From contig NZ_GG697143.2 of the NCBI RefSeq assembly GCF_000155955.1, positions 163,618-220,617 on the forward strand: a stretch of DNA of 57,000 nt, written 5' to 3'. This document shows positions 4,958 to 20,686 of this stretch, piece after piece. Numbering within the stretch: position 1 is the stretch's first letter; each line of letters starts with the position of its first letter. The stretch comes from Mitsuokella multacida DSM 20544. Its GTDB lineage: Bacteria > Bacillota > Negativicutes > Selenomonadales > Selenomonadaceae. A program made the translations under genes and the position numbers. A model generated the notes under the pieces. It had not been told where the DNA came from, made no database searches, and saw nothing but the letters and a program-made list of their open reading frames with translations.

Positions 4958-7303
4958 ATGTTTTTAAATGAATTGAAAGCCGGTGAGCGGGCGGTGGTGC
5001 GCTCGGTCGGCGGGGAGGGGGCGCTACGGCAGCATTTCCTCGACATGGGCGTGATACCGGGGGCGGAGATCACGCTGGTGAAGTTCGCCCCGATGGGGGA
5101 CCCGATCGAGTTCCGCATCCACGAGTATGAGCTGACGCTGCGCGTCGACGATGCGAAGCAGATCGGCATCGAGAAACTGCCGAAGTGGGAGTCGGACCAG
5201 CATCCGGTCGTCAAGATCCCGCACGAGCCGACGGACCATCCGGGGCTCGGCGAGGGCGGCCGCTACCATGTGCGCGAGGGTGAGCACCCTCTGCCGGATG
5301 ACCAGCTGCTGACGTTCGCGCTTGCGGGCAACCAGAACTGCGGCAAGACGACGCTATTCAACCAGCTGACGGGCTCGAACCAGCACGTCGGCAATTTCCC
5401 AGGCGTCACGGTCGACCAGAAGAGCGGCAGCATCCGCGGCCATGAGAACACGAAGATCACGGATTTGCCGGGCATCTACTCGATGTCGCCGTACACGGAC
5501 GAGGAAATCGTCTCGCGTGAGTTCATCCTGCGCGAGCAGCCGACGGGCATCATCAACATCGTCGATGCGACGAACATCGAGCGCAACCTCTACTTGACCT
5601 TGCAGCTCATCGAGCTCGACCGCCCGATGGTCCTCGCGCTCAACATGATGGACGAGCTCACGGGCAACGGCGGCTCGGTCGACATCAATGCGATGGAGTC
5701 CCTGCTCGGTATCCCGATTGTGCCGATCTCGGCATCGAAGGGCGAGGGCATCGAGGAGCTCGTCGCGCACGCGCTGCACGTCGCACATTACCAGGAGAAG
5801 CCGGGCCGCATGGACTTCTGCGATGCGGAGAGCCATCGCGGCGCGGTGCACCGCTGCCTGCACGGCATCATGCACCTCATCGAGGATCACGCGAAGGAAG
5901 CGCGCATCCCGGTCCGCTTCGCCGCGACGAAGATCGTCGAGGGCGACAGCCGCATCATCGAGGCGCTGATGCTCGATCAGAACGAGATGGAGATGATTGA
6001 GCACATCATCTGCCAGATGGAGAAGGAGCGCGGCCTCGACCGCTCGGCGGCCATAGCGGACATGCGCTTTTCCTTCATCGGCAAGCTCGTCGACCGCACG
6101 TTCCACAAGGCGCACGAGAGCCGCCAGCACGAGCGCAGCCGCCGCATCGACAAGGTGCTGACGGGCAAGTACACGGCCATTCCGGCCTTCATCGCCATCA
6201 TGAGCCTCGTCTTCTACCTGACGTTCAACGTCATCGGCGCGGGGCTTCAGGACCTCTTGGCGGCAGGCATCGGCCTGCTGCAGGATCAGGTCGATGCGGC
6301 CATGACGGCGGCCGGCGTCAATGAGGCCATGCACTCGCTCGTCATCGACGGCATCTTCCAGGGCGTCGGCACCGTGCTGTCGTTCCTGCCAATCATCGTG
6401 ACGCTCTTCTTCTTCCTGTCCCTGCTCGAGGACACGGGCTATATGGCGCGCATCGCCTTTGTCATGGACAAGTGGCTCAGGAAGATCGGCCTGTCGGGCC
6501 GCAGCATCGTGCCGCTGCTCATCGGCTTCGGCTGCTCGGTGCCGGCCATCATGTCGACGCGCACGCTGCCGTCGGAGCGCGACCGCCGCATGACGATCCT
6601 CCTGACGCCGTTCATGAGCTGCTCGGCCAAGCTGCCGATCTACGGCTTCTTCATCGCGGCGTTCTTCGGCGATTACGGTGCCCTGCCGATGATTGTGCTC
6701 TACTTCGGCGCGATGCTCGTCGGCATTCTCGTGGCCTATCTCGGCAAGAACACCATCTTCAAGGGTGAGGCTGTGCCGTTTGTCATGGAACTGCCGAACT
6801 ACCGCATGCCGGGCCGCCGCAATGTCATGCAGCTGCTCTGGGAGAAGTCGAAGGACTTCCTCGAGCGCGCGTTCTCGGTCATCTTCATTGCGACGATCGT
6901 CATCTGGTTTTTGCAGACGTTCAACTTTCGTCTCGACATGGTGACGGATTCGTCGGAGAGCATGCTCGCCGCTGTCGCGGGCATCATCGCGCCGATCTTT
7001 GCGCCGCTGGGCTTCGGCGACTGGCGCATCTCGACGGCGCTGATCTCGGGCTTCATGGCCAAGGAGAGCGTCGTCTCGACGCTCGGCGTCCTGTTCGGCA
7101 CGAGCTCCATCTCGACCGTGCTGACGCCGCTCTCGGCTGCGTCACTCCTGGCGTTCTGCCTGCTCTACACGCCGTGTGTCGCCGCCATCACCTCCGTCAA
7201 GCGCGAGCTCGGCACGACGTGGGCTATCTGGGTTGTCATCTTCCAGTGCGTTATCGCCTGGATCGTCTCCTTTATCGTCCATACAATCGGCTTACTTTTA
7301 TGA
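4958..7303 (+). CDS. feoB: Ferrous iron transporter, FeoA-FeoB fusion
   Basis: This 781-residue inner-membrane protein imports Fe2+. Residues about 1-75 are a FeoA (SH3-like) domain (LNELKAGERAVVRSVGG). A linker leads to the FeoB G domain with G1 GNQNCGKTT (residues 124-132), G3 DLPG, G4 NMMD (229-232) and G5 SASKGEG. After about residue 400 comes the polytopic part with the two Gate motifs and FeoB core segments (GFGCSVPAIMSTR, PFMSCSAKLPIYG). ATG at 4958 is chosen because AAAGGAG lies 8 bases upstream; a frame extending to 4928 adds 10 unconserved residues. No FeoC follows. FeoA and FeoB are more often separate genes, so the fusion is noteworthy but known in other lineages. Confidence 0.96.
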   Translation: MFLNELKAGERAVVRSVGGEGALRQHFLDMGVIPGAEITLVKFAPMGDPIEFRIHEYELTLRVDDAKQIGIEKLPKWESDQHPVVKIPHEPTDHPGLGEGGRYHVREGEHPLPDDQLLTFALAGNQNCGKTTLFNQLTGSNQHVGNFPGVTVDQKSGSIRGHENTKITDLPGIYSMSPYTDEEIVSREFILREQPTGIINIVDATNIERNLYLTLQLIELDRPMVLALNMMDELTGNGGSVDINAMESLLGIPIVPISASKGEGIEELVAHALHVAHYQEKPGRMDFCDAESHRGAVHRCLHGIMHLIEDHAKEARIPVRFAATKIVEGDSRIIEALMLDQNEMEMIEHIICQMEKERGLDRSAAIADMRFSFIGKLVDRTFHKAHESRQHERSRRIDKVLTGKYTAIPAFIAIMSLVFYLTFNVIGAGLQDLLAAGIGLLQDQVDAAMTAAGVNEAMHSLVIDGIFQGVGTVLSFLPIIVTLFFFLSLLEDTGYMARIAFVMDKWLRKIGLSGRSIVPLLIGFGCSVPAIMSTRTLPSERDRRMTILLTPFMSCSAKLPIYGFFIAAFFGDYGALPMIVLYFGAMLVGILVAYLGKNTIFKGEAVPFVMELPNYRMPGRRNVMQLLWEKSKDFLERAFSVIFIATIVIWFLQTFNFRLDMVTDSSESMLAAVAGIIAPIFAPLGFGDWRISTALISGFMAKESVVSTLGVLFGTSSISTVLTPLSAASLLAFCLLYTPCVAAITSVKRELGTTWAIWVVIFQCVIAWIVSFIVHTIGLLL

Positions 7304-7331
7304 TTCATTGAATCATTTCTTGTGAATATCT

Positions 7332-7365
7332 GCCTGCTGTGAGCTATGCTGCAGCAGGCTTTTTT
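7332..7365 (+). terminator. Rho-independent terminator of feoAB
   Basis: GCCTGCTG at 7332-7339 pairs with CAGCAGGC at 7352-7359, followed by TTTTTT. The remaining spacer to 7557 is AT-rich and carries no gene; it probably holds the promoter of the following catabolic operon, but I cannot place boxes reliably. Confidence 0.85.
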
Positions 7366-7557
7366 ACGTGTTGATAATAAAATATAGATGCATATTATTG
7401 CTATGATAAGCGGTACCTTTCATCGGAAGACAAAATACGATAGTGATATGAGTGTATAAATAAGAGCAAAAAATAGAAAACCAGGTAAAATATAAATATC
7501 AGCTGAGGAAAAACAAAACAAGAAGGTTGTAGGGGGTTAATAGGGGGAATGTGAAGC

Positions 7558-8919
7558 ATGGAAAGCAATCAATATCAACCAATCAAGATGAAGGAAAAGC
7601 TTTGTTACAGCAGCGGTGATTGCGCTGGTCAGATCTATGTCACCTTGTGTACCTTTTTCCTGACTGGTTATTACACGGACACCGTCGGCATTGCCGCTTC
7701 GGCAGTCGCTACGATGATGTTCGTGACGCGAATCTTCGATGGCACGAGCGACCTGTTCATGGGAGCACTGATTGAGAAGACGCATTCTCGATATGGCAAG
7801 GTCAGGCCGTGGATCCTCTGGAGTTCGCCATTCATGGCGCTCGGCTTCATCGCCTTGTTCTTTGTGCCGGAGTCGCTGGGGGATACAGGCAAGCTCATCT
7901 ACGCGTATGTGACGTACATTCTGCTCAACTGTGTCATCTATACGGCAAATGGTATTGCCTACAATTCGCTTCTCTCGCGCATGACTTTCAGCATTCGCGA
8001 CCGCGTGTCCTGCACATCCATTCGCTTTATTCTCGGCAATGTCATGGCACTGGCCATCAATATGATCACTGCAGTCCTCGTGGGCAAGATTGGCTGGCAT
8101 GCGCTGGCTGTCATCTATGCGGTCATCATGCTAGTCCTACTGCTCATCTGCTTCTGGGGCTGTGAAGAGCACATCGGCAAGCGCCTGGATGAGTCGGATA
8201 AAGAACGGAAGGGAAAGGCGGAGCGTGTTCCACTGAAAAAAGCGTTCGCTGCGTTGCTGCACAACAAATACTTCTATTTGCAGACGCTCCTGATGACCTC
8301 ACTTTACATCAGCGTGATGTTCACGGGGACCATGACGTATTATTTCTGCAACAGCGTTCTGCATGACCTTTCGCTCATGGCACCTATCAGCATGGCTTAC
8401 ACCTTGCCGGTACTGCTCGGCAGCTTTTTGAATCCGCGTCTTGTCGAGAGAATTGGCAAGCAGAAGACCTTGATTGCTGCGTTTGCTCTGGTCATCCTTG
8501 GTCGCATCCTGGTCGGTCTGGCGGATGTCGCGCTCGTGCCCATCATGATTGGCTGTGCCCTGCATGGCTTTGCTCTGGGCTTCATCTACGCAGATGTATT
8601 TGCGATGACGTCGGATGTCGTGGACTATGGTGAATGGAAATTCGGCATTCGCTCGGAAGGACTGGTTACCTGTTGTGTCATGATCGGCATGAAGGTCGGT
8701 CTGGGCATTGGTGGCGCTCTCGTCGGCATCCTGCTGGCTGTCAGTGGTTATCAGGGACTTGCCGCCATGCAGGCACCGGAGGCGCTTGCAGCCATCAAAT
8801 TTGGATTTGGTTACATTTGCGCAGCCTTTGCTCTTGTCAGCCTGCTCATCAGTCTCTTCATGAACCTGGACAATCTCGTCCATCGGATTCAGGAAGACTT
8901 GATTCGCAAGTATTCTTAA
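7558..8919 (+). CDS. GPH-family sugar (glycoside) : cation symporter
   Basis: A 453-residue inner-membrane transporter of the glycoside-pentoside-hexuronide family (MelB/YicJ-like major facilitator). Twelve hydrophobic segments are visible. The N-terminal stretch with TDTVGIAASAVATMMFVTRIFDGTSD and then GALIEKTHSRYGKVRPWILW is the family signature; the Asp residues of helices II and IV normally bind the coupling cation. It is the first gene of the catabolic operon, 32 bases before the deglycosidase beta subunit, so the likely cargo is an intact glycoside. GGGGG about 14 bases upstream serves as a modest ribosome site. Confidence 0.9.
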   Translation: MESNQYQPIKMKEKLCYSSGDCAGQIYVTLCTFFLTGYYTDTVGIAASAVATMMFVTRIFDGTSDLFMGALIEKTHSRYGKVRPWILWSSPFMALGFIALFFVPESLGDTGKLIYAYVTYILLNCVIYTANGIAYNSLLSRMTFSIRDRVSCTSIRFILGNVMALAINMITAVLVGKIGWHALAVIYAVIMLVLLLICFWGCEEHIGKRLDESDKERKGKAERVPLKKAFAALLHNKYFYLQTLLMTSLYISVMFTGTMTYYFCNSVLHDLSLMAPISMAYTLPVLLGSFLNPRLVERIGKQKTLIAAFALVILGRILVGLADVALVPIMIGCALHGFALGFIYADVFAMTSDVVDYGEWKFGIRSEGLVTCCVMIGMKVGLGIGGALVGILLAVSGYQGLAAMQAPEALAAIKFGFGYICAAFALVSLLISLFMNLDNLVHRIQEDLIRKYS

Positions 8920-8951
8920 TCTCGTCTATACATATCATAGGAGGTCCTATC

Positions 8952-9410
8952 ATGTTTGATAATTTTCTGATTCGCAAAGACAGCTTGAAGAATGATTACG
9001 ATGCCAAGGGAAACATCATCGGGTTCCAGATGGCTGTCCGCAATGCCAATTATCGTGGCGTTTATCTTTCCTTGCACAATGGCTATTACATCAAGGCTGA
9101 TGGTGTGCTCTACAAGCGCGATGTCCAGACGTTTGAGATTAACGGCCGCGAGCCGCGCACGTTTGAGCAGATCAAGAAATGTGTCTGGGAACATTGGGAT
9201 TTCGATGATGAAGCAATTCTGCACATCTATAAGCCAGGCGGGCTTAAGCCGGGCAAACATACCATTGATTTCCAGCAGTCCATCCTTGCAGCATATGGCT
9301 ATCTGCCCACGGATGAAGAGTGGGTCAAGAATCCGCCGGAGCCTGGCACGGGTGCTGGTTCCGATAAGACGAAGAATATCGTCACATATGAGTTGGAACT
9401 GCAGGAGTGA
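8952..9410 (+). CDS. C-glycoside deglycosidase beta-subunit-like protein (DUF6379)
   Basis: The product (152 residues) resembles the small beta subunit of C-glycoside deglycosidases (DUF6379; DgpB/DfgB/CarC type), a beta-sandwich partner that covers the active site of the TIM-barrel alpha subunit. Recognisable features are the start FDNFLIRKDSLKN, a central SLHNGYYIKADG, and the closing strand IVTYELELQE. The start at 8952 has AGGAGG 8 bases upstream. The alpha-subunit gene begins 48 bases downstream. That neighbour and the following DgpA-like oxidoreductase support the call more than this small sequence alone. In described systems the beta subunit has no activity without alpha. Confidence 0.8.
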   Translation: MFDNFLIRKDSLKNDYDAKGNIIGFQMAVRNANYRGVYLSLHNGYYIKADGVLYKRDVQTFEINGREPRTFEQIKKCVWEHWDFDDEAILHIYKPGGLKPGKHTIDFQQSILAAYGYLPTDEEWVKNPPEPGTGAGSDKTKNIVTYELELQE

Positions 9411-9458
9411 CAGAAGATAGAATGATTGATGCAGACCGATAGATTAGGAGGAAATATC

Positions 9459-10583
9459 ATGGCAATCAAACGCGGTGTCGATTTTTACAGCTATCAGCAG
9501 GCCCAGTTCTTTGGCCAGATGAATCTTGAGCAGCAGATGAAGGAAGCGGCTAGTATCGAAGGTGTTACAGGCATCGAGATGCTCGATGAGCAGGCGCTGC
9601 ACTATCCGGACCCGAGCCCGGAATTCGTCGATCAGTGGTATGAGTGGCTGGCTAAATATAAGCTCGAGCCGGTCACCCTGGATGTCTTTGGCGATGTCCT
9701 GCAGTTCCGCGACCACGTCATGAGCATCCATGAACTGGGAGAGCGCTTGATGCACGATGTCCGCCTAGCACATCGACTTGGCTTCAAGTACGTCCGCACT
9801 CTCGCGACGACGCCGCTGGAGGTCATGGCACTCGCGGTTCCCGTGGCAGAAGAGCTCGGCATGCGCATTGGCAAGGAAATCCATGCGCCGATTCCACTCA
9901 ATGGCCAATATGTCAAGGAAATCGTCGATTATGTCGATAAGACGGGCACGAAAGCCCTTGGTATTGTGCCAGACTGGGGCATCTTCGCTTATCGCCCGTC
10001 GGAGGTTACGCTTGACTGGTATGTGCGCCAGGGGGCAAAGCGCAAGACCTGTGACCTCGTCGACAAGCTCTGCATGGACACGTACACGGGCAAGTCGGAC
10101 ATCCTGTCGAACATCGACCTCTCCCTGTATTCGGCTGGCAATGTTGAATCGTTCTTCCACAGCTACCTCAACAACCGTAAAGTGCCGCAGGAACTCATCC
10201 CAGTATTCCAGATGATGGAAGCACTCGTCAAGGACAATGTCAAGGATTATACGGATATCGACTTTGAGGTCATGGGCCAGGCCCTGCTTCTGTCACGTGC
10301 CAATCCGGACAATCTGCGCAAACTCATGCCGTACATCGTCAACTTCCACGGCAAATTCTACAATATGTCGGAAGTTCCGGGACACCCGGGTGAATACGAG
10401 GACAAATCTATCGACTATGCAGGCCCAATCCAGGTACTCAAGGAAGTCGGCTATGATGGCTACATCAATACGGAATATGAAGGCCAGCGCCGCTTTCAGG
10501 ATCGCGGTGTCGAGGATCTCATTGACGAGGCGGACCAGGTCCGCAAGCATCAGGGCATGATGAAACGCCTGATTGAAGGTTGA
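9459..10583 (+). CDS. C-glycoside deglycosidase alpha-subunit-like TIM barrel (sugar phosphate isomerase/epimerase fold)
   Basis: A 374-residue protein of the xylose-isomerase-like TIM-barrel superfamily, matching the large subunit of C-glycoside deglycosidases, which break the C-C bond between a 3-keto sugar and its aromatic aglycone. Candidate metal ligands (Mn2+ in studied enzymes) are E140, D172, H297 and E339; H142, two residues after the first ligand (KEIHAP), fits the catalytic base. The start at 9459 follows AGGAGG at good spacing; an upstream in-frame start at 9426 has no such site. It is flanked by the beta subunit and an oxidoreductase, as in puerarin-degrading gut bacteria. Some close relatives act on 3-keto O-glycosides instead, so C-C specificity is inferred. 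Confidence 0.82.
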   Translation: MAIKRGVDFYSYQQAQFFGQMNLEQQMKEAASIEGVTGIEMLDEQALHYPDPSPEFVDQWYEWLAKYKLEPVTLDVFGDVLQFRDHVMSIHELGERLMHDVRLAHRLGFKYVRTLATTPLEVMALAVPVAEELGMRIGKEIHAPIPLNGQYVKEIVDYVDKTGTKALGIVPDWGIFAYRPSEVTLDWYVRQGAKRKTCDLVDKLCMDTYTGKSDILSNIDLSLYSAGNVESFFHSYLNNRKVPQELIPVFQMMEALVKDNVKDYTDIDFEVMGQALLLSRANPDNLRKLMPYIVNFHGKFYNMSEVPGHPGEYEDKSIDYAGPIQVLKEVGYDGYINTEYEGQRRFQDRGVEDLIDEADQVRKHQGMMKRLIEG

Positions 10584-10645
10584 ATGTGTATCGAGAATTT
10601 TATTTGAGTTATATTTGAATCATAAGTCCATAGGAGGAATTTATC

Positions 10646-11752
10646 ATGGCTAAGAAATTACAGCTCGCATTCGTTGGCACTGGTGGCATCTGCAACCATA
10701 AACATATCCCGGCACTCTTGAAACTGCAGGATAAGGTCGAGATTGTCGCACTCTGCGATATCGACCGCGCAAAAGCCGAGAAGACGGCCAAAGACTTCGG
10801 CCTGACGGACGCTAAAATCTATACGGACTACCACGAGATGCTCAAGGATGATAACATCGATGTCGTGCATGTTTGCACGCCGAACGTCTCGCATTGTGAG
10901 ATCACGGTCGCGGCTTTTGAGGCGGGCAAGCATGTTTACTGTGAGAAACCGATGGCTGCCAAGACGGAGGACGCCGAGAAGATGCTCGCTGCCTGGAGAA
11001 AATCCGGCAAGAAGTTCACGGTCGGCTATCAGAATCGCTTCCGCTATGATGTCCAGGTCCTCAAGAAAGCCTGTGATGCCGGTGACCTCGGTGACATCTA
11101 CTATGCAGAGGCCAATGCCATCCGCCGCAAGGCCGTTCCGACTTGGGGGGTCTTCCCGGATAAGTCGAAACAGGGCGGCGGCCCGCTCATCGATATCGGC
11201 ACGCATGCACTGGACATCACGCTCTGGTGCATGAACAACTACGATGTCGACTCAGTCAGCGGCCAAGTCTTCTACAAGCTCGGCAATGATCCAGAGGCGG
11301 CTCAGGGCAATACGTACGGTCCTTGGGATGCGGAGCACTTCGAGGTAGAGGATTCGGCCATGGGCTTCATTAAGATGAAGAACGGTGCCCTGATTAATTT
11401 GCGTGCTTCTTGGGCACTCAATTACCTCGATGCACGCGAAGCTTCGACGACGCTCTGCGGCACGAAGGAAGGTGCGGAGATTAAGCACGGCGGCAGCTAC
11501 CCGAAGTCGGAGCTCTGGTTCAATCACACGCGCCATGGCAAGATGATGACGGAGTTCCTGTCGGGGGAAGCACTTGTCGACTATTTTGAGGGCGTTAACG
11601 AGCCGCCGGCTGATGTCGATATGCGCCAGTGGACGAATGCCATCCTCAATGATACGGAACCGTGCGTAAAGCCGGAAGAGGCATTCCGCATCACGCAGAT
11701 TCTCGATACAATCTACAAAGCTGCAGCGACGAATACGACCATCAAGCTTTGA
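10646..11752 (+). CDS. Gfo/Idh/MocA oxidoreductase, DgpA-like glycoside 3-dehydrogenase
   Basis: The 368-residue product has an N-terminal Rossmann fold (FVGTGGICNHKHIPAL) that binds NAD(P), the EKP motif (K101) and the C-terminal alpha/beta domain with D183 and H187 in GGGPLIDIGTHALDI. The stretch VPTWGVFPDKSKQGGGPLIDIG closely resembles DgpA-type enzymes, which oxidise the sugar C3 hydroxyl of a C-glycoside to the ketone needed before C-C cleavage. In studied members hydride is returned to free 3-keto sugar, making the step redox-neutral. ATG follows AGGAGG. Position directly after the alpha subunit supports the role. Confidence 0.87.
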   Translation: MAKKLQLAFVGTGGICNHKHIPALLKLQDKVEIVALCDIDRAKAEKTAKDFGLTDAKIYTDYHEMLKDDNIDVVHVCTPNVSHCEITVAAFEAGKHVYCEKPMAAKTEDAEKMLAAWRKSGKKFTVGYQNRFRYDVQVLKKACDAGDLGDIYYAEANAIRRKAVPTWGVFPDKSKQGGGPLIDIGTHALDITLWCMNNYDVDSVSGQVFYKLGNDPEAAQGNTYGPWDAEHFEVEDSAMGFIKMKNGALINLRASWALNYLDAREASTTLCGTKEGAEIKHGGSYPKSELWFNHTRHGKMMTEFLSGEALVDYFEGVNEPPADVDMRQWTNAILNDTEPCVKPEEAFRITQILDTIYKAAATNTTIKL

Positions 11753-11793
11753 TATGTGAGAGCTAATGATAGAAAAGAATGCAGGTGAGTATC

Positions 11794-12864
11794 ATGTTTA
11801 AATTTGCAGTGATTGGCTACGGCTTCATCGGCCGCCGCCATGTCAATACGTTGAAATCATTCGATGGCGTGGACTGCGTGGCAGTCTGCGATATCGACCC
11901 GGTTCGCCGGGAAGAGGCCAAGAAAGCGCATTCGGACATTGAGACATACGCGAGTGCCGATGAACTTTTTGCCAAAGCCGATATTGACAGCGTCATCATT
12001 TCGGCCAATAATAATCAGCACCACGACCTTGTCATCAAGGCTGCCCGTGCGGGCAAGCACATCATCTGTGAGAAGCCGGTGGCGCTGAGTGTCCGTGAGC
12101 TCGATGAGATGATTGAAGAAGTCCGTCAAGCCGGTGTGACCTTCACAGTCCATCAGCAGCGTCGCTTCGATAAGGACTTCCAGACGGCGAAGGCATGCTA
12201 TGACCAGCATCTCGTCGGCGACGTCTACACAATCCAGAGCAAGCTCTTTGGCTATAACGGTAATATGCATGACTGGCATGTTTACAAGGCTGAGGGCGGT
12301 GGCATGCTCTACGACTGGGGCGTCCACCTCATCGACCAGGCGCTGTACCTCGACAAGAGCCGTCTCGTCTCGGTCTACGCCGATGTGCGCAATGTCATCA
12401 ACAAAGAAGTCGACGATTACTTCAAGATCCTGCTTTCCTTTGAGGATGGTGTGACCTTTGAGATTGAGCTTGGAACCTACTTCCTCTCGGACCGCAAGAA
12501 TTGGTTTGAGCGTCACTGGTTCGTGGGCGGCAATAAGGGCTCAATGCATGCCGACAAATTCAATCCGGAAGGCTCCATCGTGCGCACGGCGCATCTGCTC
12601 GAGAATGTGGCAGGCGAACAGGATAAGTCGACGGCCTCGTATGGCCCGACGCGTTCCTTCGGCATCCCGGCACCAGGCCTTATCAAGACGGAGCCGTTGC
12701 CGGAAGTCCACACAGAGCAGCGCGACTACTTCGTCAATTACTTCAAGGCACGCCGCGGTGAAGCGGACTTTGTCGTCACAATCCCGCAGGTGCGCCGCGT
12801 GCTCGCAGTCATGGAAGCCATCCGCAAATCGGCTGCCACGAAACGCAGCATTGACTTTGAATGA
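11794..12864 (+). CDS. Second Gfo/Idh/MocA-family oxidoreductase
   Basis: This 356-residue NAD(P)-dependent oxidoreductase has a Rossmann motif VIGYGFIGRRHVNTL, the EKP motif (K94) and D174/H178 in GGGMLYDWGVHLIDQ. It differs clearly from the preceding paralogue, especially in the substrate domain, so it is not a recent duplicate. Carrying two such enzymes is common in glycoside 3-keto pathways: one may oxidise the glycoside and the other may reduce the released 3-keto sugar, or they may prefer different glycosides. Which does what cannot be read from the sequence. The start at 11794 has AGGTGA upstream; an ATG at 11779 is in frame but poorly placed. Confidence 0.87.
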   Translation: MFKFAVIGYGFIGRRHVNTLKSFDGVDCVAVCDIDPVRREEAKKAHSDIETYASADELFAKADIDSVIISANNNQHHDLVIKAARAGKHIICEKPVALSVRELDEMIEEVRQAGVTFTVHQQRRFDKDFQTAKACYDQHLVGDVYTIQSKLFGYNGNMHDWHVYKAEGGGMLYDWGVHLIDQALYLDKSRLVSVYADVRNVINKEVDDYFKILLSFEDGVTFEIELGTYFLSDRKNWFERHWFVGGNKGSMHADKFNPEGSIVRTAHLLENVAGEQDKSTASYGPTRSFGIPAPGLIKTEPLPEVHTEQRDYFVNYFKARRGEADFVVTIPQVRRVLAVMEAIRKSAATKRSIDFE

Positions 12865-12883
12865 GGTAGGACATCATGATGGC

Positions 12884-13735
12884 ATGACGATGACGCGTCG
12901 TGAATTCGTGAAAGCAGCTGGCATAATTTGTGCGGCAGCTGTGGCTGGTGATATGGATACCTTAGCCATGGCGGCCGAAACAGCAGAGAAGGAGGAGGGT
13001 TCCATGGTTATTGATGGACATGTGCATGTCTGGACGGCAGAAGGGGAGAATGAGCGGGCCAAGGTTGAGAATATCGTCAAGGCGATGGATGCGAATGGTA
13101 TCGACAAAGTCGTCTGCTTCCCGTTTGCCGCAGGACTGGAGAAGCAGAGGAAAATGGCAGAGCTCATCAAGCCGTATGGAGACCGGTTTTATCCGCTGGC
13201 CTTCATCAATCCGAACGAGAAGGATGCCAAGGAACAGCTGCTCTATTGCCTCGATGAACTCGGTTTTCACGGCATGAAACTGCATCCGTGGTTCGGTAAT
13301 TTCTCACTGGCAAACATCGAGCTCTTGCGTCCAACCATGGAAGTGCTCAATGAGCGTGGTCTCTACACGGTTATCCATTGCACGTCAGACGATGCGCGCA
13401 TGCACCCCATCATGTTCGAGAAACTCGGCCTCGCCTTCCCGAATGTCGCGATTCAGATGGCCCATATGGGGGAAGTCATGGCAGGGGAATATGCTATCGA
13501 TGTCGCGAAACGCGTGCCGAACGTCTATGTTGATACGTCCATCACGAGCTATATGGCTGTCATTCACGCGCACGAGCAGATTGTCGATAAGACGGTCATG
13601 GGCTGTGATTTCCCATTCTACAGGTTCGAGATGGAGATACAGAAACAGAAGCTGGCTGCAGAAGAACTGCACGATGTCGAAGGCATGAGGAAAATCATGG
13701 GAGAGAATCTTGCTCGAGTGCTTCATCTGAAATAA
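12884..13735 (+). CDS. Amidohydrolase-2-family enzyme with possible twin-arginine signal and a strong internal start
   Basis: The product is 283 residues from 12884. Residues 4-32 form a complete Tat-type signal: TRREFVK, a short hydrophobic core AAGIICAAAVAG and a cleavage site after LAMA. The mature TIM barrel has the superfamily metal residues H46, H48, H165, H194 and D242 (GCDFPFY), typical of PF04909 hydrolases and decarboxylases. An equally convincing start exists at 13004 (MVIDGHVHVW), with AAGGAGG 8 bases upstream, which would give a 243-residue cytoplasmic enzyme. The 12884 start has only GAGGTAGG 13 bases away. Substrate unknown; an aglycone or an unsaturated keto sugar from the deglycosidase step is possible. 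Confidence 0.82.
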   Translation: MTMTRREFVKAAGIICAAAVAGDMDTLAMAAETAEKEEGSMVIDGHVHVWTAEGENERAKVENIVKAMDANGIDKVVCFPFAAGLEKQRKMAELIKPYGDRFYPLAFINPNEKDAKEQLLYCLDELGFHGMKLHPWFGNFSLANIELLRPTMEVLNERGLYTVIHCTSDDARMHPIMFEKLGLAFPNVAIQMAHMGEVMAGEYAIDVAKRVPNVYVDTSITSYMAVIHAHEQIVDKTVMGCDFPFYRFEMEIQKQKLAAEELHDVEGMRKIMGENLARVLHLK

Positions 13736-13754
13736 GGGAAGCAAAACAGGCAGT

Positions 13755-13816
13755 GTATAGGAATTGAAAAAGGGGAAGTTCTCCGCTTAAGGTGGGATAC
13801 TTCCCCTTTCCTATAC
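13755..13816 (+). terminator. Long hairpin terminator closing the catabolic operon
   Basis: Outer arms GTATAGG (13755-13761) and CCTATAC (13810-13816) and inner arms AAGGGGAAGT and ACTTCCCCTT make an interrupted long stem. It lies between the amidohydrolase and the porin. Confidence 0.65.
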
Positions 13817-13890
13817 GCATATCGGATATATTATCGTATTATTCTGATTATACAGGTGCGTAGAAGAGAGAAGAAAGGGAGGAAATCCAA

Positions 13891-15294
13891 ATGCGGAAGG
13901 GATATCAAACAAAAACAGTCATGGCCATGGCAGCCATAGGAGCTGCCTTGAGTGTTTGGGGCACTGCTCCGGCAGAAGCGGCCTCATTCTTGGAGGAAGT
14001 GCCGGTCTCGGACTGGTCGTATCAGGCTGTCAATGGCCTCATCGATGCTGGGAAGGTGCCTGGCTATGCGGCGAAGATACCGGAGGGGCGCGTCATGAGT
14101 CGTCTGGAAATGGCGGCCATTGTCGAATCGGCGGAGGGAAATCAAGCAGCGATGACGCCGACAGAGCAGCAGGAACTCACGAAGCTGAAGAATGCATATG
14201 ATTATGACATCAAGAAGCTGGAACTCATTAATCGCCTGGATGGAGCTGCGGAGCATCTCAACCAGCAATCGCGTACACATGACGATGGCTTTACACCGGA
14301 GGAGAAGGCTGGACTGAAGAAGGCCGCTGCATTGGCGGATAAGCTTTCCATCAGCGGCTATGGGCGCCTGCGCAACGATCATCGCATCAAGGAGACGGGC
14401 GGTCGACAGACGATTGCCAATAAAGTACAGGTCTTCGTGGCCTCCAACTATCAGGTCAATGAGGACTGGCAGGCCCATGCAGACCTCTACTATCGCAGCT
14501 CTTTGAGCAGTGGCTTCGATGAGAGCCGCAGGACGCTGTGGCCGGATGACAATCACACGGGCATCATTGTCGACCCGTACATCACAGGACGACTGCTCCA
14601 CAATTCTTTAGGAATCAAGGCGGGCAAGTAGAATGAGTGGAACATCTACGGTTGGGGCATGGACATGGATTGCGATTTTGCCGGCTTCCAGCTCGATTAC
14701 GGCAAGAAGGATTTCAAGACCTTCTTGACCGTCGGCAAGATGGATTTGTGGGATAATGTCATGGGCGGTACGCGTGAAGATGAGGAAATCACGAGCCTGC
14801 GCTTCTTCTATCCGTTTGACAAGAAGAATGATGTCAATTTCGGCGTCTCGTGGAGTTCTGCGATGCAGAGTCGCTATCAGGACCCTGACCAGGGTCGCGT
14901 CTTCTACTATTACGGTCACGCACATCATCGCTTCGACAAGAATTGGGATTTGCGCGCCGGACTTATTGCGAGCAATGCCAAGCGTGATCCGTCGAACCCC
15001 GTTGCTAGTACGAAATCCAAGCATCCAGGTCGCTGGCTGCAGCTGCTCTACAAAGGGGAAGATCTGCAGAGACCGGGTTCGTATGGTATCAAGCTGACGT
15101 ACCGCTATGAACCGGCGCTTTCCTGGCCGACGGTGACGGACTGGTGCGACCTCAACGATAAATTCGTCCGCCTTGCATTCTCGTACGTGCCGGCTAAGAA
15201 CATCTTGCTCGATACCTTCTATAGCTGGGAGCGTGAGATTGATACAGGGGATCGTGACGATATGTACCGCTTCCAGGCTCAGTTCTTCTTCTGA
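13891..15294 (+). pseudogene. SLH-domain outer-membrane porin, interrupted by one in-frame TAG
   Basis: The frame would encode a 467-residue outer-membrane protein, but codon 247 (14629-14631) is TAG; the same frame continues cleanly to 15294. Residues 1-31 are a signal peptide ending AEA; an SLH domain follows (FLEEVPVSDWSYQAVNGLI, about 32-80), which in Negativicutes tethers porins to polyamine-bearing peptidoglycan. A coiled segment (about 85-130) and then amphipathic beta strands lead to a C-terminal phenylalanine, as usual for beta barrels. The change looks like CAG to TAG. It may be a true null allele, a suppressed stop or a sequencing error. The position before the AraC regulator and after the glycoside operon suggests a dedicated entry pore. 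Confidence 0.85.
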
Positions 15295-15344
15295 GGTGCT
15301 GGCAGGATTTACGGAATGGATAACGAATCATGCGAGTGAGGTGA

Positions 15345-17831
15345 ATGCATTTGGAGAAGGACCATTTAAAAGCGGGACAGATTATGTCCGTACAGATTGT
15401 GGAGGATTGTTCTGCTGCACAACATTCTCATGGAGATATCGAGCTCTTATACATTCTGTCTGGCTATGTCCAGGTCACAGTAGGCAGTGAAAACCAGTCT
15501 CTGAAAGAACGTGATATACTCGTCATCAATGCGAACCGCGAACACAGCTATATCGGCAGTGAGGGGATGCTCATGGCTCGCTTCCTGATTTCCCTGCAGG
15601 GGATCAAGGAAATGATGGGACAGAGCATTGTCCTATTGCGGTGCTGCTCTGCGAGAGAACAGCATGAGGCGTTTTCCAGCCTTCGCTTTCTCATTGGCCG
15701 CATCCTCAACGATATCCTGACACACAACAACTCGCAGATTTACCGCAACAGCCTCTATTATCAGATGCTGCACATCCTGACGAGCAATTTCCTGATACCG
15801 CCGGAGGAAATCCACTATCGAACGGATGTGGATAAGGATGAACTGCGCCTGCAGGAAATCTTTGCCTACATTCGGACCAATTACCGCCATAATATCCGGC
15901 TGAAAGACTTGGCGCAGCACTTGTTCCTCAGTGAGACGTATGTATCGAAGTACATCTCGCAGAAGTGTGGCATCAACTTTGTCGGGCTCGTCAATCACAT
16001 TCGCTTGGAATATGCGATGGATGACCTCATCGAATCAGATGTCAGCATCATTCATTTAGCCATGGACAATGGCTTCGTCAGTGTGGCGGCGTTCAATCAT
16101 TATTTCCAGCAGGCCTATCAGATGAACCCGTCTGCCTTCCGCAAGCGCTACCGCCAGCAGCGCAGGGAGCAGCAGGAGCGGGTGAAGAATATCCAGAAAG
16201 AACAGGAGGTCAAGCAGCGCATCGATGCCTTCCTGCGCGAGGAAGCAGATGGCGGTACGGCTTACGATCGCCGTGAAATCACGGTGCAGGTAGATACCGC
16301 CATAGATGGGATGCATTTCGAGAAAGCCAATCTCGTAGCTGTCATCAATGTGGGAACCGCAGTGGAACTTCTCGATGCTGGTCTCCGGGCGCAGTTGCTT
16401 GCATCACAGAGACGTCTGGGCTTCCGCTACGTCCGTTTCTGGAATCTGTATGGTGAGGGCATGAATTTCGATATCCACGCGAAGGGACCTCTGAATTTTA
16501 ACCGTCTCGACAATATCTTGGACTTCCTGCTCGAACATCAGCTGCGGCCTTACATTGAGCTTGGCTGCAAACCATACCGCATCCTGCGCACGACAAAGAC
16601 GGCAGTGCGCGATGACTATGCCCCGAACGGGGATTTCCGGGACCTCCAGGAGGAGCGGGAGTTCTATCGGCAGCTGGCTGTACATCTGGAACAGCGCTAT
16701 GGCGACAAGGAAGTAGCGAATTGGTTTTTTGAATTGCGCATGAAAGAGCACTCGGTTTTTCAGGGCAGCCAGTTTTCTTATACGCCCTTGTCTGCAGCAG
16801 ATCATCAACAGTTCTTCCGGGAATTTGATGCAGTTGCTGCAGTGTTGCAGCAAAGTCTCCCGTCACTCCGGTTGGGGGGAGGTGGCTTCCCCGTTCAGCA
16901 TTATGGCCGGGAAGAGCTGCAGGCATGCGTAGAGCGTTGGTTGAAGAATCATGTGCGCCCTGCGTTCATCAGTATGACAGGCTTTCCTTATCATCTGGAA
17001 CAGCACGAGGGCGATATGTATTTTGAGAAGCGCATTACGGATGAAGAATTCATCCGGCATAACGTACAGCTGATGGAACGTGTCTTAGCAAGCGTTGGTT
17101 TGGCAGGCGTCCCGATACATCTGTCAGAATACGCCATGAGCCTGTCGAGCCGCAATGCGATGAATGACAGCTGCTATCGAGGCGCATTCCTGATGCGTAC
17201 GCTCATTTCCTGCGTGAGTTGCCAGAATCTGCTCATGGGACAGTGGCTTTTTTCGGATCTCCACAGCGAGTATAAGGATACGCGGGGACTGCTGTTTGGT
17301 GGCAGCGGCTTGGTGACGCGCGATGGCATCCCGAAGCCGGCCTGGTTCGCCTTTGATTTCTTCCATGCCTGTCATGATAGGTTCCTGGCAATGGAAGAGC
17401 ACTGCCTTGTCACGGGCGGGGAGGACATAGGCTACCGCTTGGTCTGCCATAACGGCAAGCATCTGAACTATCATTATTACATGACGCCAGAGGACCAGGT
17501 AGATGGGAGAGCAATCAGTACATATCTTGAGGACCGGGATGTACTTTGCTTGCACATCGTTCTGCGTCATCTGAAGAACGGACGCTATATTATCCGGCAG
17601 AGGCGCATTGACGATGGTGATGGCAGCATCCAGGATGAATGGAATGAGCTTGACTGCATGGAAGGGCTGACCAGTCTGGAAGTCCGTCATCTCGCCAAGA
17701 TTACGATGGCTCATCTGAGCATCCGCCATCGGCAGGTTGAGGATGGGACACTGCAGTTGGACCTGGAGTTGCGGCCCGATGAGATACGCTATCTGGAAAT
17801 CAGCAAATCATTGGATTGGCTTGAATCTTGA
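15345..17831 (+). CDS. AraC-family regulator with cupin sensor and C-terminal GH39-like domain
   Basis: The 828-residue product has an N-terminal cupin-type sensor (about 10-95, AQHSHGDIELLYILSGYV), a two-helix-turn-helix AraC DNA-binding domain (about 170-275, LKDLAQHLFLSETYVSKYISQ ... AAFNHYFQQAYQMNPSAFRKRYR) and a domain like glycoside hydrolase family 39 (about 310-700). In GH39 enzymes the acid/base lies in a WNEP motif; the aligned stretch here is FELRMKEH (462-469), where the catalytic Glu appears replaced, while the nucleophile-like Glu is kept (SEYAMS, E595). It is therefore probably a sugar sensor and not an enzyme. ATG 15345 is very close to GAGGTGA; TTG 15351 gives better spacing. 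It likely controls the surrounding genes. Confidence 0.88.
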   Translation: MHLEKDHLKAGQIMSVQIVEDCSAAQHSHGDIELLYILSGYVQVTVGSENQSLKERDILVINANREHSYIGSEGMLMARFLISLQGIKEMMGQSIVLLRCCSAREQHEAFSSLRFLIGRILNDILTHNNSQIYRNSLYYQMLHILTSNFLIPPEEIHYRTDVDKDELRLQEIFAYIRTNYRHNIRLKDLAQHLFLSETYVSKYISQKCGINFVGLVNHIRLEYAMDDLIESDVSIIHLAMDNGFVSVAAFNHYFQQAYQMNPSAFRKRYRQQRREQQERVKNIQKEQEVKQRIDAFLREEADGGTAYDRREITVQVDTAIDGMHFEKANLVAVINVGTAVELLDAGLRAQLLASQRRLGFRYVRFWNLYGEGMNFDIHAKGPLNFNRLDNILDFLLEHQLRPYIELGCKPYRILRTTKTAVRDDYAPNGDFRDLQEEREFYRQLAVHLEQRYGDKEVANWFFELRMKEHSVFQGSQFSYTPLSAADHQQFFREFDAVAAVLQQSLPSLRLGGGGFPVQHYGREELQACVERWLKNHVRPAFISMTGFPYHLEQHEGDMYFEKRITDEEFIRHNVQLMERVLASVGLAGVPIHLSEYAMSLSSRNAMNDSCYRGAFLMRTLISCVSCQNLLMGQWLFSDLHSEYKDTRGLLFGGSGLVTRDGIPKPAWFAFDFFHACHDRFLAMEEHCLVTGGEDIGYRLVCHNGKHLNYHYYMTPEDQVDGRAISTYLEDRDVLCLHIVLRHLKNGRYIIRQRRIDDGDGSIQDEWNELDCMEGLTSLEVRHLAKITMAHLSIRHRQVEDGTLQLDLELRPDEIRYLEISKSLDWLES

Positions 17832-17848
17832 ACACAACGCTGATGAGT

Positions 17849-17900
17849 CGACATCATGACAAGAAACAGGGATAAAATCTTGTTGTGATGTCGGCTTTTT
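17849..17900 (+). terminator. Rho-independent terminator after the AraC regulator
   Basis: CGACATCA (from 17849) pairs with TGATGTCG (17886-17893), with further pairing of ACAAG and CTTGT inside, and then TTTTTT. A possible -10 box TACAAT (17969-17974) with a weak -35 lies downstream for the next gene. Confidence 0.8.
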
Positions 17901-18029
17901 TATTGAATATCATAAATAAACTCACTGATATGGATGTATTGTGCGGAGAAGCGCGGGGGAGAAATCGGTACAATATAGGTACAGTAAAGAAGTCAAGAAA
18001 TCCTGATACAAAGAAAAGAGGGGCTTATC

Positions 18030-18950
18030 ATGATGAAGTTTGGTTTACTGACATCCATTCTTGAGGGAACGACATTTGAAGAAGCAGTTGACTTTGCTGC
18101 CGAGAATGGCCTGGAGTGTCTGGAAGTGGCCTGCTGGCCGAATTCGGGCGGGGCGAAGCGCCGCTACGCTGGTGTCTGCCACATTGATGCGGAAGCGCTG
18201 ACGCCGGAACGCGCAGCAGAGATTCGCACCTATTGCCAGAAGAGAGGCGTCGCAATCTCGGCCCTCGGCTATTATCCCAACACGTTGGACCCGGATCTTG
18301 CGAAGCGCAAGGCATATATCGCGCACCTCTACGCGCTGATCGATGCGGCGGCGATGCTCGAGGTCAATATGGTAACGACGTTCCTCGGCCGCATCACCGA
18401 CCAGTCGGTGGAACAGAATCTCTCTGTGGTCAAGGAAGTATGGCCGCCAATCCTCGAGTATGCCCAGAAAAAAGGCGTCAAGATCGCCATCGAGAACTGT
18501 CCGATGTGGTTCACCGAAGATGAGTGGCCGGGCGGACAGAATCTCATGACGAGTCCTGCGAACTGGCGCAAGGTATTCGAAATCCTGCCGTATGACAATT
18601 TCGGCATTAACTACGATCCGTCCCATTTCGTCTGGCAGCAGATTGACTATATCAAGCCAATCTATGAGTTCAAGGACCGTATCTTCCACGTGCACTTCAA
18701 GGATATCAAACTTCTGCACGACAGACTGGCAGATGTAGGTGTCATGGCTTGCCCGTTGGAGTACATGAAGCCGAAGATTCCGGGACTCGGTGATGTGGAC
18801 TGGGGCAAGTACGTTTCGGCACTCAGTGATATCGGCTACGATGGATACAGCGTCATCGAAGTCGAGGATAAAGCATACGAGGGCACACTTGACGATGCGA
18901 AGCGTGCGGTCAAAGTGGCAGCGCATTATCTGCGCAATTTCGTCGGCTGA
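18030..18950 (+). CDS. Sugar phosphate isomerase/epimerase family protein
   Basis: This 306-residue TIM barrel of the AP-endonuclease-2/xylose-isomerase-like superfamily has the metal-binding set E155 (AIENCP), D196 (NYDPSHF), H222 (HVHFKD) and E277 (VIEVED). It is distinct from the deglycosidase alpha subunit at 9459. Relatives near glycoside 3-keto pathways isomerise or hydrate keto sugars; here it could convert the unsaturated or 3-keto sugar released by the deglycosidase, but the sequence does not fix the substrate. It has its own promoter region after a terminator, so it is a separate unit that may share the AraC regulator. The start has AGAGGGG upstream; a second ATG follows directly. 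Confidence 0.85.
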   Translation: MMKFGLLTSILEGTTFEEAVDFAAENGLECLEVACWPNSGGAKRRYAGVCHIDAEALTPERAAEIRTYCQKRGVAISALGYYPNTLDPDLAKRKAYIAHLYALIDAAAMLEVNMVTTFLGRITDQSVEQNLSVVKEVWPPILEYAQKKGVKIAIENCPMWFTEDEWPGGQNLMTSPANWRKVFEILPYDNFGINYDPSHFVWQQIDYIKPIYEFKDRIFHVHFKDIKLLHDRLADVGVMACPLEYMKPKIPGLGDVDWGKYVSALSDIGYDGYSVIEVEDKAYEGTLDDAKRAVKVAAHYLRNFVG

Positions 18951-19016
18951 GGCAGAGATAAAGACTGCCGACAAGATTAGAGATGAAGCGATAAGATGAA
19001 GGAAGGAGCGTACGGA

Positions 19017-19718
19017 ATGGGAGAAATGAGATTTTCTGCAGTAATCCGCTTGCTGATCTATATCGCAGGGATTGTTTCCGTATCATTGGGCATTGTCTTG
19101 TGCAAAAAGTGTGGCTTTGGCATCTCACCAATCAGCAGTATCCCCTTTGTACTGGAGGCCGCAATTCCCCTTACATTCGGTACATTGACGATGCTCTTCC
19201 ACTTGGCAAACACAATCCTGCAGATGGTGATGGCACGCGAGATTACGGTGAAATATCTCTTGCAGGTGCCTGTGGCCATTCTGTTTGGCCAGATAATCGA
19301 TCTCCTGCAGTTCTTCATCGTTCCGGACACATCGGATTTTCTGCTTGCTGTTTTCTATCTTGTCGGCAGCATTATCTTTACCGCAATCGGGATGGTCCTG
19401 ATGATCAACATGCATCTCGTCCAGAATCCGCCAGATGGCTTTGTCTATCTGCTGAGCCTTCGCACTGGTCATGGACTCGGATGCGATAAGGTTCTTTATG
19501 ACAGTGCCTGTGTCGTCATTTCTATAGCGGTTGGCTTGATGCTTTACGGCAACCTGTACGGGATGGGGGCAGCGACAATCCTTTCGGCAATCTTTGTCGG
19601 CCGCCTGATCCGACCACTGAATCCTGTATTCTTGCGTTTGATGCAGAGATGGGATGTGGATGGGACGACGGGCAGTGCTACGGAAATGGAAGAGGCGACG
19701 GAACCGGCAGCCGAATGA
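19017..19718 (+). CDS. YczE/YyaS/YitT-family integral membrane protein
   Basis: The product (233 residues) has about five or six membrane helices and the family's CGFGISPISSIPFVL and GHGLGCDKVLYD-like motifs. YczE-type proteins are membrane proteins of unclear role; several sit beside biosynthetic or transport genes. The start at 19017 follows GGAAGGAG; an in-frame ATG at 18996 precedes that site and is rejected. It lies 66 bases after the isomerase and just before a HAD phosphatase, so the three may be one transcript. The C-terminal tail is acidic and probably cytoplasmic. Confidence 0.8.
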   Translation: MGEMRFSAVIRLLIYIAGIVSVSLGIVLCKKCGFGISPISSIPFVLEAAIPLTFGTLTMLFHLANTILQMVMAREITVKYLLQVPVAILFGQIIDLLQFFIVPDTSDFLLAVFYLVGSIIFTAIGMVLMINMHLVQNPPDGFVYLLSLRTGHGLGCDKVLYDSACVVISIAVGLMLYGNLYGMGAATILSAIFVGRLIRPLNPVFLRLMQRWDVDGTTGSATEMEEATEPAAE

Positions 19719-19781
19719 GTTATGCGTGATGATGAGCGATATGGGGCGATTCCTGTACGAGAAGCAAAGGAGCGAATGAAG

Positions 19782-20633
19782 ATGATCAAGGCGATTTTTT
19801 CGGATATGGATGGCACCTTGCTCAATGAAGCAGGGCGGCTGCCGACAGGGTTCGGTGAGCTGGCTGCACAGTTGCGAAGCAGGGGCGTCATCTTTGCTCC
19901 TGCTTCGGGGCGGCAGTATGCATCATTAGCAAGGACATTTGCATCGTATCGCGAGGACTTCCTGTTCATCGCCGAGAATGGTGCGCTGGTCCGCTATCGG
20001 GAAAAGACCATCTTTTCCTGCCCGATTGACGAGAATCTCGTCTGGGATGTCCTTGATGCGGTGCTTGGCAAACCGGATATCTTCCCCGTGCTCTGTGGTC
20101 TGCGCCACGCTTATGTGTTGAGGCAACAAGCGAGGGATTCTCTGCTTCAGGGCATTGAGCCGTATTACCCCAATCATGTGTTGGTGCATTCCTTTGCTGA
20201 TGTAGAAGATGTTTGTGTGAAAATCGCTTTATTCGATGACAGCGGACAGGCAGGTCAGCATATCCTGCCGTATGTCAAGACTTTTTCCAGCAAACTGCAG
20301 CTCGTGGAATCGAGCGGGTTCTGGCTGGACATCATGCAAAAAGGCGTGAACAAGGGAAAGGCAATCAAGGCCGTCTGCTCACGTTTTGGTTGGCAGTCGG
20401 GGGAGTGTGCAGCTTTCGGCGACTGGCTCAACGATGTTGAGATGATGAAGGCGGTTCGCTACAGCTTCGCAATGGCTAACGCGCATTCATCTGTCAAGCA
20501 AGCAGCGCATTTTACGACGTTGACCAACAAAGAGAACGGTGTGCTGCTTGGTATCCAGGGCTTGATTCAGAAAGGCTTGCTGTATTCTCCAGGGCAGCAT
20601 GGTGATTTATCTCCAGATTGCCTTCCCGCATGA
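19782..20633 (+). CDS. Cof-type HAD-IIB phosphatase
   Basis: The 283-residue product starts with the nucleophile motif FSDMDGTLL (D8, D10) and ends with the metal motif FGDWLNDVEMMKAV, with the Lys of motif III at NKGKAI. This is the HAD subfamily IIB layout with a cap between motifs I and III, typical of sugar or cofactor phosphatases. ATG 19782 was chosen because AAAGGAG sits 9 bases upstream; starts at 19776 and 19722 are less well placed. It follows the YczE-like gene closely and is closed by a bidirectional terminator. Substrate unknown. Confidence 0.9.
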   Translation: MIKAIFSDMDGTLLNEAGRLPTGFGELAAQLRSRGVIFAPASGRQYASLARTFASYREDFLFIAENGALVRYREKTIFSCPIDENLVWDVLDAVLGKPDIFPVLCGLRHAYVLRQQARDSLLQGIEPYYPNHVLVHSFADVEDVCVKIALFDDSGQAGQHILPYVKTFSSKLQLVESSGFWLDIMQKGVNKGKAIKAVCSRFGWQSGECAAFGDWLNDVEMMKAVRYSFAMANAHSSVKQAAHFTTLTNKENGVLLGIQGLIQKGLLYSPGQHGDLSPDCLPA

Positions 20634-20686
20634 CATAAGACCCCTTCCTGGCTCTTTCCTTGATTTATCTTTGCGGGATTGCACAT

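Follow-up and report, generated by a model that had tools for sequence, protein, structure and literature searches.

The stretch of DNA analyzed here (the window, 57,000 nucleotides of contig NZ_GG697143.2 from Mitsuokella multacida DSM 20544) carries near its left end six intact genes on the forward strand, arranged head to tail with intergenic gaps of 32, 48, 62, 41 and 19 bp, which match a cation symporter, the beta and alpha subunits of a C-glycoside deglycosidase (CGD), two oxidoreductases and an amidohydrolase, with further genes following downstream (Table 1). An original prediction, made by a model from the letters of the window, had placed six genes at 7558-13735 with short gaps between them and had read them as an operon for the cleavage of C-glycosides (or aryl-glycosides). 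The positions (with gaps of 19-62 bp) and the reading itself, here that of a DgpABC-like C-glycoside cleavage operon, are both borne out by the family and structure matches described below, while the unit is about twice as long as the stated interval and runs to about 20686. Based on these matches, we consider it highly probable that the whole unit is an acquired island that encodes a complete C-glycoside catabolic pathway with cleavage of the C-C bond.

Table 1. Features of the island, with positions in the window and the evidence for each assignment (TAT, twin-arginine translocation; SLH, S-layer homology).
Feature	Position	Strand	Evidence
Whole island (insert), about 13.4 kb	7297-20686		Flanks 35 bp (G001) and 80 bp (G002) apart; GC contrast
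GPH-family cation symporter, candidate C-glycoside importer	7558-8919	+	TIGR00792, 274.8 bits (cut-off 231.35); PF13347, E 1.2e-74
CGD beta subunit (CGDB, DUF6379), 152 aa	8952-9410	+	PF19906, E 9.1e-34, 116.1 bits (cut-off 27.6)
CGD alpha subunit, TIM barrel and predicted four-helix lid, 374 aa	9459-10583	+	PDB matches, residues, tree, model
DgpA-type glycoside 3-oxidoreductase	10646-11752	+	PDB 7xr9 DgpA, E 1.8e-159, residues 3-364
DgpA2-type Gfo/Idh/MocA oxidoreductase	11794-12864	+	PDB 9m37, "P581a DgpA2 and isoorientin complex structure", E 6.1e-116
Amidohydro_2 protein with TAT signal; candidate lactonase (or aromatic-acid decarboxylase)	12884-13735	+	PF04909, E 1.1e-22
SLH porin (OmpM-like), interrupted	13891-15294	+	One in-frame TAG at 14629-14631; 8bys, E 3.1e-6; 8bym, E 1.9e-4
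AraC-type regulator with GH39 domain, candidate pathway sensor	15345-17831	+	PF12833, E 1.3e-16; PF01229, E 4.5e-36
AP_endonuc_2 TIM barrel; candidate 2-hydroxy-3-keto-glucal hydratase	18030-18950	+	PF01261, E 1.5e-39; 71% homologue in L006 (Anaerostipes)
DUF6198 membrane protein	18996-19718	+	PF19700, E 3.3e-15
HAD phosphatase, at the right end of the island	19722-20633	+	PF08282, E 8.6e-54

At the core of the unit is the alpha-beta pair. A comparison of the 152-residue protein with the DUF6379 profile had been suggested as a check, and the protein scores far above the cut-off of that family (PF19906), for which none of the 14 control genomes searched was positive; its PDB matches are DgpB, DfgB and further CGD beta chains. 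Its gene lies directly upstream of that for the 374-residue protein, which matches eight distinct PDB sequences at E ≤ 0.001, all eight of them CGD alpha subunits or fusions according to their entry titles. This alpha subunit holds all seven expected metal and catalytic residues (E140, H142, D172, H297, K299, E339 and E341), that is, the five already listed in the original prediction plus K299 and E341, and among 29 aligned alpha subunits E140, H142, D172, H297, K299 and E339 are conserved in every one and E341 in 28. The roles of these residues, with an E/D/H/K/E set as the metal ligands and a His with a partner Glu as the base, were taken from passages of PMC8563793, and the AgCGD2 numbering was transferred to the window protein by motif and spacing; the same passages report that mutation of the corresponding CGD residues lowered activity. 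The neighboring DgpA-type protein likewise carries the predicted EKP motif of Gfo/Idh/MocA enzymes, at 100-102, together with the D183/H187 pair. A plain sugar-phosphate isomerase, the other candidate considered for the alpha protein, was rejected, since the CGDB gene next to it, the residues of the active site and PDB matches confined to CGDs all fit a CGD.

For structural comparison, the beta and alpha subunits were modeled as a single chain, reading through the beta stop codon, with a predicted template modeling (TM) score of 0.67. In this predicted structure, the alpha domain superimposes on 8qvc_A with a TM score of 0.91, the best TM score of the beta domain on CGD beta chains is 0.84 (normalized on the target), and four helices are predicted at the position of the alpha-subunit lid. 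Structure prediction of the pair had been proposed as a test of the assignment; the individual domains do match CGD chains, but the placement of the subunits differs from that in the natural fusion 8qrz (root-mean-square deviation 21.1), and since it does so, the single-chain model is not informative on alpha-beta pairing, either way. Together with this difference in placement, the low identity of the alpha subunit to solved CGD alpha chains (just 22-31%) has to be set against the CGD assignment. A comparison of the residues special to the clade of this alpha subunit (see below) brought out no clear pocket for a carboxylate.

The CGD mechanism is already known, and the operon can be compared with several described systems. 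It resembles DgpABC of strain PUE (PuCGD, acting on puerarin) in its DgpA-type oxidoreductase, its CGDB beta subunit, its TIM-barrel alpha subunit with the same metal and base residues, and its predicted lid, but its alpha subunit is 23-24% identical to the DgpC structures and belongs to a different clade from the ordinary sequences in our tree, its beta subunit has a longer, conserved C-terminal stretch in the alignment, and the amidohydrolase is extra. DfgAB of Eubacterium cellulosolvens (EuCGD, acting on 6-C-glucosyl flavones) is likewise an alpha-beta CGD (alpha E 5e-33, beta E 7.3e-11), with an alpha identity of 25%; unlike the window protein, for which a lid is predicted, EuCGD is described in passages of PMC8563793 as being without a lid domain. 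The best sequence match of the alpha subunit is the Deinococcus aerius CGD (8qvc, E 2.6e-47, 31% identity, with the TM score given above on its chain), the beta subunit of which is, however, barely related in sequence (E 0.0082). Two DgpA types combined with a CGD pair are also found in the P581a and W974-1 systems, namely P581a DgpA2 (9m37), DgpB1/C1 (9m3b), W974-1 DgpA1 (9m3d) and DgpB2/C2 (9m3a), from which the window differs in having an alpha subunit only 24-26% identical to theirs. Finally, the GlycDH-OGE-HYD-Gfo operon of Agrobacterium follows the same order of oxidation, elimination, hydration and reduction, a logic set out for this operon and for that of PUE in passages of PMC10628242. 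The Agrobacterium hydratase (8ro4) matches the protein encoded at 18030 distantly, but the O-glycoside eliminase of the operon is, in the published passages, unrelated in sequence to CGD.

The gene set lies in an insert that is missing from both other genomes of the genus that were compared, in which the flanks are 35 bp (G001) and 80 bp (G002) apart; the left edge falls at 7291 by G001 and at 7296 by G002, and the right edge at 20686 and 20727, respectively. The GC content of the insert is 0.518, compared to 0.595 in the remainder of the window. Searches of 120 further family genomes (E ≤ 1e-15) and of 397 other genomes of a phylum sample (E ≤ 1e-30), two sets that overlap, did not find the alpha gene, and the CGDB gene was found in neither of the two other genomes of the genus; an operon common to the relatives of this host was rejected on these grounds. 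Because the flanks lie close together in the relatives, the GC content is low, and the alpha gene was not found in the family and phylum genomes, acquisition of the complete set, as one clean insert, is the most likely origin, and the locus shows that C-glycoside cleavage can reside in a self-contained acquired island. Family searches of the island proteins gave no integrase, no direct repeat of at least 9 bp is common to the island edges within the stretches compared, and an Rfam scan gave no RNA feature within the island.

In a tree of 29 alpha subunits, a set that does not include the solved PDB CGDs, the window protein falls within a group of seven rows that we refer to as the long-alpha clade (support 94/83; 96% of 200 bootstrap trees; the fork is drawn open). 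The sister of this group consists of seven sequences from the Lachnospiraceae sample, and we know of no characterized member of it. Together, these 14 rows are set apart at 100/99, the 12 ordinary Lachnospiraceae-type rows being grouped at 99/98, and both the alpha and the beta subunit of the window lie outside the clade of these 12 sequences. The window alpha subunit belongs to this uncharacterized long-alpha clade. The other six long-alpha loci are those of the Niallia plasmid Man26 (L002/L057), Pantoea p174224 (L003), Novosphingobium pSA2 (L004/L058), a Clostridiales genome (L005/L040), an Anaerostipes metagenome-assembled genome (L006), and L037, whose source genome comes from the same family sample as Anaerostipes. 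The Novosphingobium, Pantoea, Niallia and Anaerostipes loci share 47-73% identity in alpha and 67-84% in beta with the window, from which the Proteobacterial loci differ in using a GMC oxidoreductase along with a lactonase of the beta-propeller type, and the Anaerostipes locus in having a phosphotransferase system (PTS). Two wider genome scans for further long-alpha loci, covering 325 and 337 genomes, gave one positive genome apiece, which was the center genome itself, a plasmid scan with the Novosphingobium alpha subunit returned three records, none of them new, and the Pantoea CGD genes had no match in E. coli genomes.

Three further observations concern the organization of these loci. Locus L046 encodes, at 9440-10924, a CGD in which beta and alpha are naturally fused (PF19906 and PF01261 in one frame), beside separate CGD genes. 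Genome G509 holds three CGDB genes (L038, L039 and L005/L040) beside alpha subunits of different clades, and several CGD types can therefore coexist. PTS permeases occur in long-alpha loci at L006:12419-14299, L005:4112-6028 and L057:10201-12075, with phosphatases nearby, which hints at uptake of C-glucosides with phosphorylation in some hosts and leaves room for a phosphorylated intermediate in the Anaerostipes, Clostridiales and Niallia loci.

A lactone- or ester-type hydrolase is encoded in six of the seven long-alpha loci, drawn from three unrelated families: an amidohydrolase in three (the window copy and relatives at 67% and 56%), a beta-propeller lactonase (PF10282) in two (Pantoea and Novosphingobium), and a CocE/NonD hydrolase in one. 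We note that the probes were picked after inspecting the loci, such that this pairing should be taken as a lead rather than as a statistic. In the Lachnospiraceae sample, 7 of 397 genomes have a match to the amidohydrolase at E ≤ 1e-15, the sole one above 36% being the genome of L006; among 105 plasmid records, only Niallia Man26 reached 60%, the next among the matches listed being at 26.8%, and a scan of viral contigs with the amidohydrolase gained nothing. Judged by this distribution, the amidohydrolase is tied to the long-alpha clade. The TAT signal of the window copy scores 19.5 bits against a cut-off of 16.7, and TatC is encoded in the same genome; no export signal is seen in the Niallia protein as annotated or in the Anaerostipes reading frame. 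The model of the amidohydrolase (predicted local distance difference test score of 93) matches, ranked by Z, two uncharacterized proteins and then 2,6-dihydroxybenzoate, 2,3-dihydroxybenzoate and ACMSD-type decarboxylases; by Foldseek, a 5-carboxyvanillate decarboxylase comes second, and LigI-type 2-pyrone-4,6-dicarboxylate hydrolases, which are lactonases, also match.

From the homologies, active-site residues, island boundaries and gene neighborhoods described here, we infer the reactions of the pathway, the direction in which each enzyme would work, and the substrate. A C-glucoside would be imported by the GPH symporter, and the C3 hydroxyl of its sugar would be oxidized by DgpA; in the metal-dependent alpha-beta CGD, H142 would then act as the base at sugar C2, with elimination of the aglycone and rupture of the C-C bond, leaving 2-hydroxy-3-keto-glucal (1,5-anhydro-hex-1-en-3-ulose) as the predicted sugar product. 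This compound may be hydrated to 3-keto-glucose by the TIM-barrel protein encoded at 18030, and a Gfo/Idh/MocA enzyme (DgpA or DgpA2) could convert 3-keto-glucose to glucose, with the AraC-GH39 protein as the probable regulator. Cleavage of the C-C bond by such a route of oxidation, elimination, hydration and reduction is very likely. The hydratase assignment is weak: the 18030 protein matches the hydratase AtHYD (8ro4) weakly (E 6.5e-6, residues 187-280), and 2zds, a protein of unknown function, better (E 1.1e-14). Further CGD loci, from the Lachnospiraceae sample and from G509, also contain homologues of the 18030 gene (56-74%), DgpA (59-68%) and DgpA2 (50-57%), and because these recur there, all three genes look like general parts of CGD loci. 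The exported amidohydrolase would open a bergenin-type lactone: in bergenin, the acid group of the aglycone forms a lactone with the sugar, and a hydrolase is therefore needed to free the aglycone.

Gene neighborhoods in the closely related loci suggest an aglycone that is carboxylated or a lactone. After the CGD block of Novosphingobium pSA2 come a LysR gene, a reductase with the annotation PDR/VanB, an O-demethylase-like Rieske protein that has a VanA_C domain, a gallate dioxygenase (748.6 bits against a cut-off of 412) and a transporter that matches the aromatic acid/H+ symport model TIGR00895 at 3.8e-90. The Niallia locus encodes two transporters that match the same model at 1.7e-90 and 1.1e-87. 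In the aglycone of bergenin, the positions ortho and para to the C-linked carbon bear hydroxyls. Such hydroxyls are needed in the CGD mechanism set out in passages of PMC8563793. Passages of PMC11053098 describe bergenin, a C-glucoside in clinical use, as the lactone form of 4-O-methylgallic acid 2-C-glucoside. A DgpA is reported to convert it to "oxo-bergenin and derivatives" (in a passage of PMC11239390), and the puerarin degrader Dorea MRG-IFC3 to leave it unconverted (in one of PMC10772555). Use of bergenin would need enzymes for lactone opening, 3-oxidation, C-C elimination and O-demethylation, together with a gallate pathway, and the Novosphingobium block appears to offer all of these. 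From this gene set, the hydrolases of six long-alpha loci, the two Niallia transporters, the aglycone hydroxyls, the oxidation of bergenin by a DgpA and its non-conversion by Dorea MRG-IFC3, we tentatively propose galloyl-type aryl C-glucosides, with bergenin foremost, as the substrate of the long-alpha enzymes. We extend this, with equal reserve, to a joint reading in which the long-alpha clade would be a separate CGD branch for galloyl C-glucoside lactones, the lactone-opening hydrolase would have been recruited three times from unrelated families, and the present host would have added a TAT-exported hydrolase and an outer-membrane porin to an otherwise Lachnospiraceae-like set.

Several points weigh against a galloyl substrate. 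Gallate genes stand beside one long-alpha locus only, with no aromatic-acid genes within the stretch covered of the Pantoea locus, and all three TIGR00895 matches lie under the cut-off of that model. No hydrolase of the three types was found in the Clostridiales locus (L005, searched with four probes; L040, with the amidohydrolase probe only), and the hydrolase probes also have relatives among the 18 other CGD loci checked, in 3 of them, namely L042 (28%), L043 (the source of its own probe) and L056 (29%). Furthermore, the fold of the amidohydrolase suits decarboxylases at least as well as lactonases, and the fold comparison could not separate the two. This leaves room for some other carboxylated aromatic C-glucoside, the freed aromatic acid (or its precursor) being decarboxylated by the amidohydrolase rather than a lactone being opened, in line with the aromatic-acid and ACMSD-type decarboxylases that follow the two uncharacterized proteins among its best model matches and with the second-ranked 5-carboxyvanillate decarboxylase. 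We regard this as rather unlikely: the export signal of the window copy, which favors a lactonase, would be odd for a decarboxylase acting on the aglycone after cytoplasmic C-C cleavage, and in the loci of Pantoea and Novosphingobium its place is taken by a protein of a lactonase family.

The original prediction had instead named puerarin-type or flavone C-glucosides. On such a reading, this would be an ordinary pathway for flavonoid C-glucosides such as puerarin, vitexin or isoorientin, with the amidohydrolase as a passenger or acting on a flavonoid breakdown product, and it can draw on the fact that the characterized Bacillota CGDs in passages of PMC8563793 all act on flavonoid C-glucosides, as well as on the closeness of DgpA2 to an enzyme solved with isoorientin and of DgpA to the puerarin DgpA. 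However, the clade placement of alpha and beta outside the 12 ordinary sequences (a tree without the solved CGDs), the lack in the island of the FAD/Fer4 flavoprotein set that is repeated in L048, L050, L052, L053 and L055, and the finding of amidohydrolase relatives above 50% only in long-alpha loci all argue against it. With the low identity of the alpha subunit and the neighborhoods of its relatives also taken into account, a flavonoid substrate is not supported as originally put forward, and we hold it, like galloyl C-glucosides, to be a possibility well short of an even chance, other aglycones making up the rest. It is improbable, in turn, that the island applies 3-keto chemistry to O-glycosides or sugar phosphates and that C-glycosides are not its natural substrate. 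D3dgpA does oxidize O-glycosides as well (a passage of PMC11239390), and PTS genes and phosphatases stand beside some relatives, but the island has a CGDB beta subunit and a complete CGD active site, its importer is a GPH symporter and not a PTS, and in the cited passages the CGD complexes of known substrate act on 3-oxo C-glycosides.

Returning to the proposed catabolism of C-glycosides, two further island genes may bear on uptake and control. The porin gene, which has no Pfam match, matches two structures (8bys and 8bym) that are both titled "S-layer homology domain-containing protein", and we take it to be OmpM-like, a name that follows the title of PMC10628300. An SLH-type porin fits a Negativicute host; none was seen in the annotations and probes of the Novosphingobium, Pantoea, Niallia and Anaerostipes loci. 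The in-frame stop of the window gene reflects either a true pseudogene or an assembly error, and, as the gene is interrupted, outer-membrane uptake may rely on other porins. Viewed together, the porin and the export signal of the amidohydrolase look like adaptations to a two-membrane cell. Of 22 further Bacillota CGD loci that were checked, 13 (L002, L005, L006, L037, L039, L045 and L048-L054) contain a relative of the AraC-GH39 protein, with both domains confirmed by Pfam in L045, L051 and L054 and one domain each in the reading frames of L037 and L039, making AraC-GH39 a likely regulator family for C-glycoside pathways. Passages of PMC11170127 report 21 and 28 GH39 genes in Catenibacillus genomes and C. 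scindens as negative for beta-glucosidase and xylosidase activity. We suggest that many Catenibacillus GH39 domains may be sensors in C-glycoside regulators, which may explain their abundance. The DUF6198 protein has a homologue (52%) beside the CGD genes of the Anaerostipes locus.

Bacterial removal of C-linked sugars decides the activation of several plant drugs, and the locus is a concrete candidate for bacterial bergenin cleavage, for which we found no bacterial genes in the open-licence literature. The same literature gave no description of the long-alpha clade, the hydrolase pairing, the island or the diderm additions, nothing on point that joins C-glycosides with Negativicutes, porins or an amidohydrolase or lactonase, and no paper on DUF6379. 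According to passages of PMC12724307, homologues of DgpABC are nearly confined to Bacillota; Enterococcus, Clostridium and Paenibacillus are named in these passages, and no Negativicute is.

Elsewhere in the window, we note a RAGATH-18 RNA on the forward strand at 975-1047 (72.6 bits, gathering score 44.9) and an IS605 OrfB/TnpB-type protein at 40860-42116 (PF01385 and PF07282).

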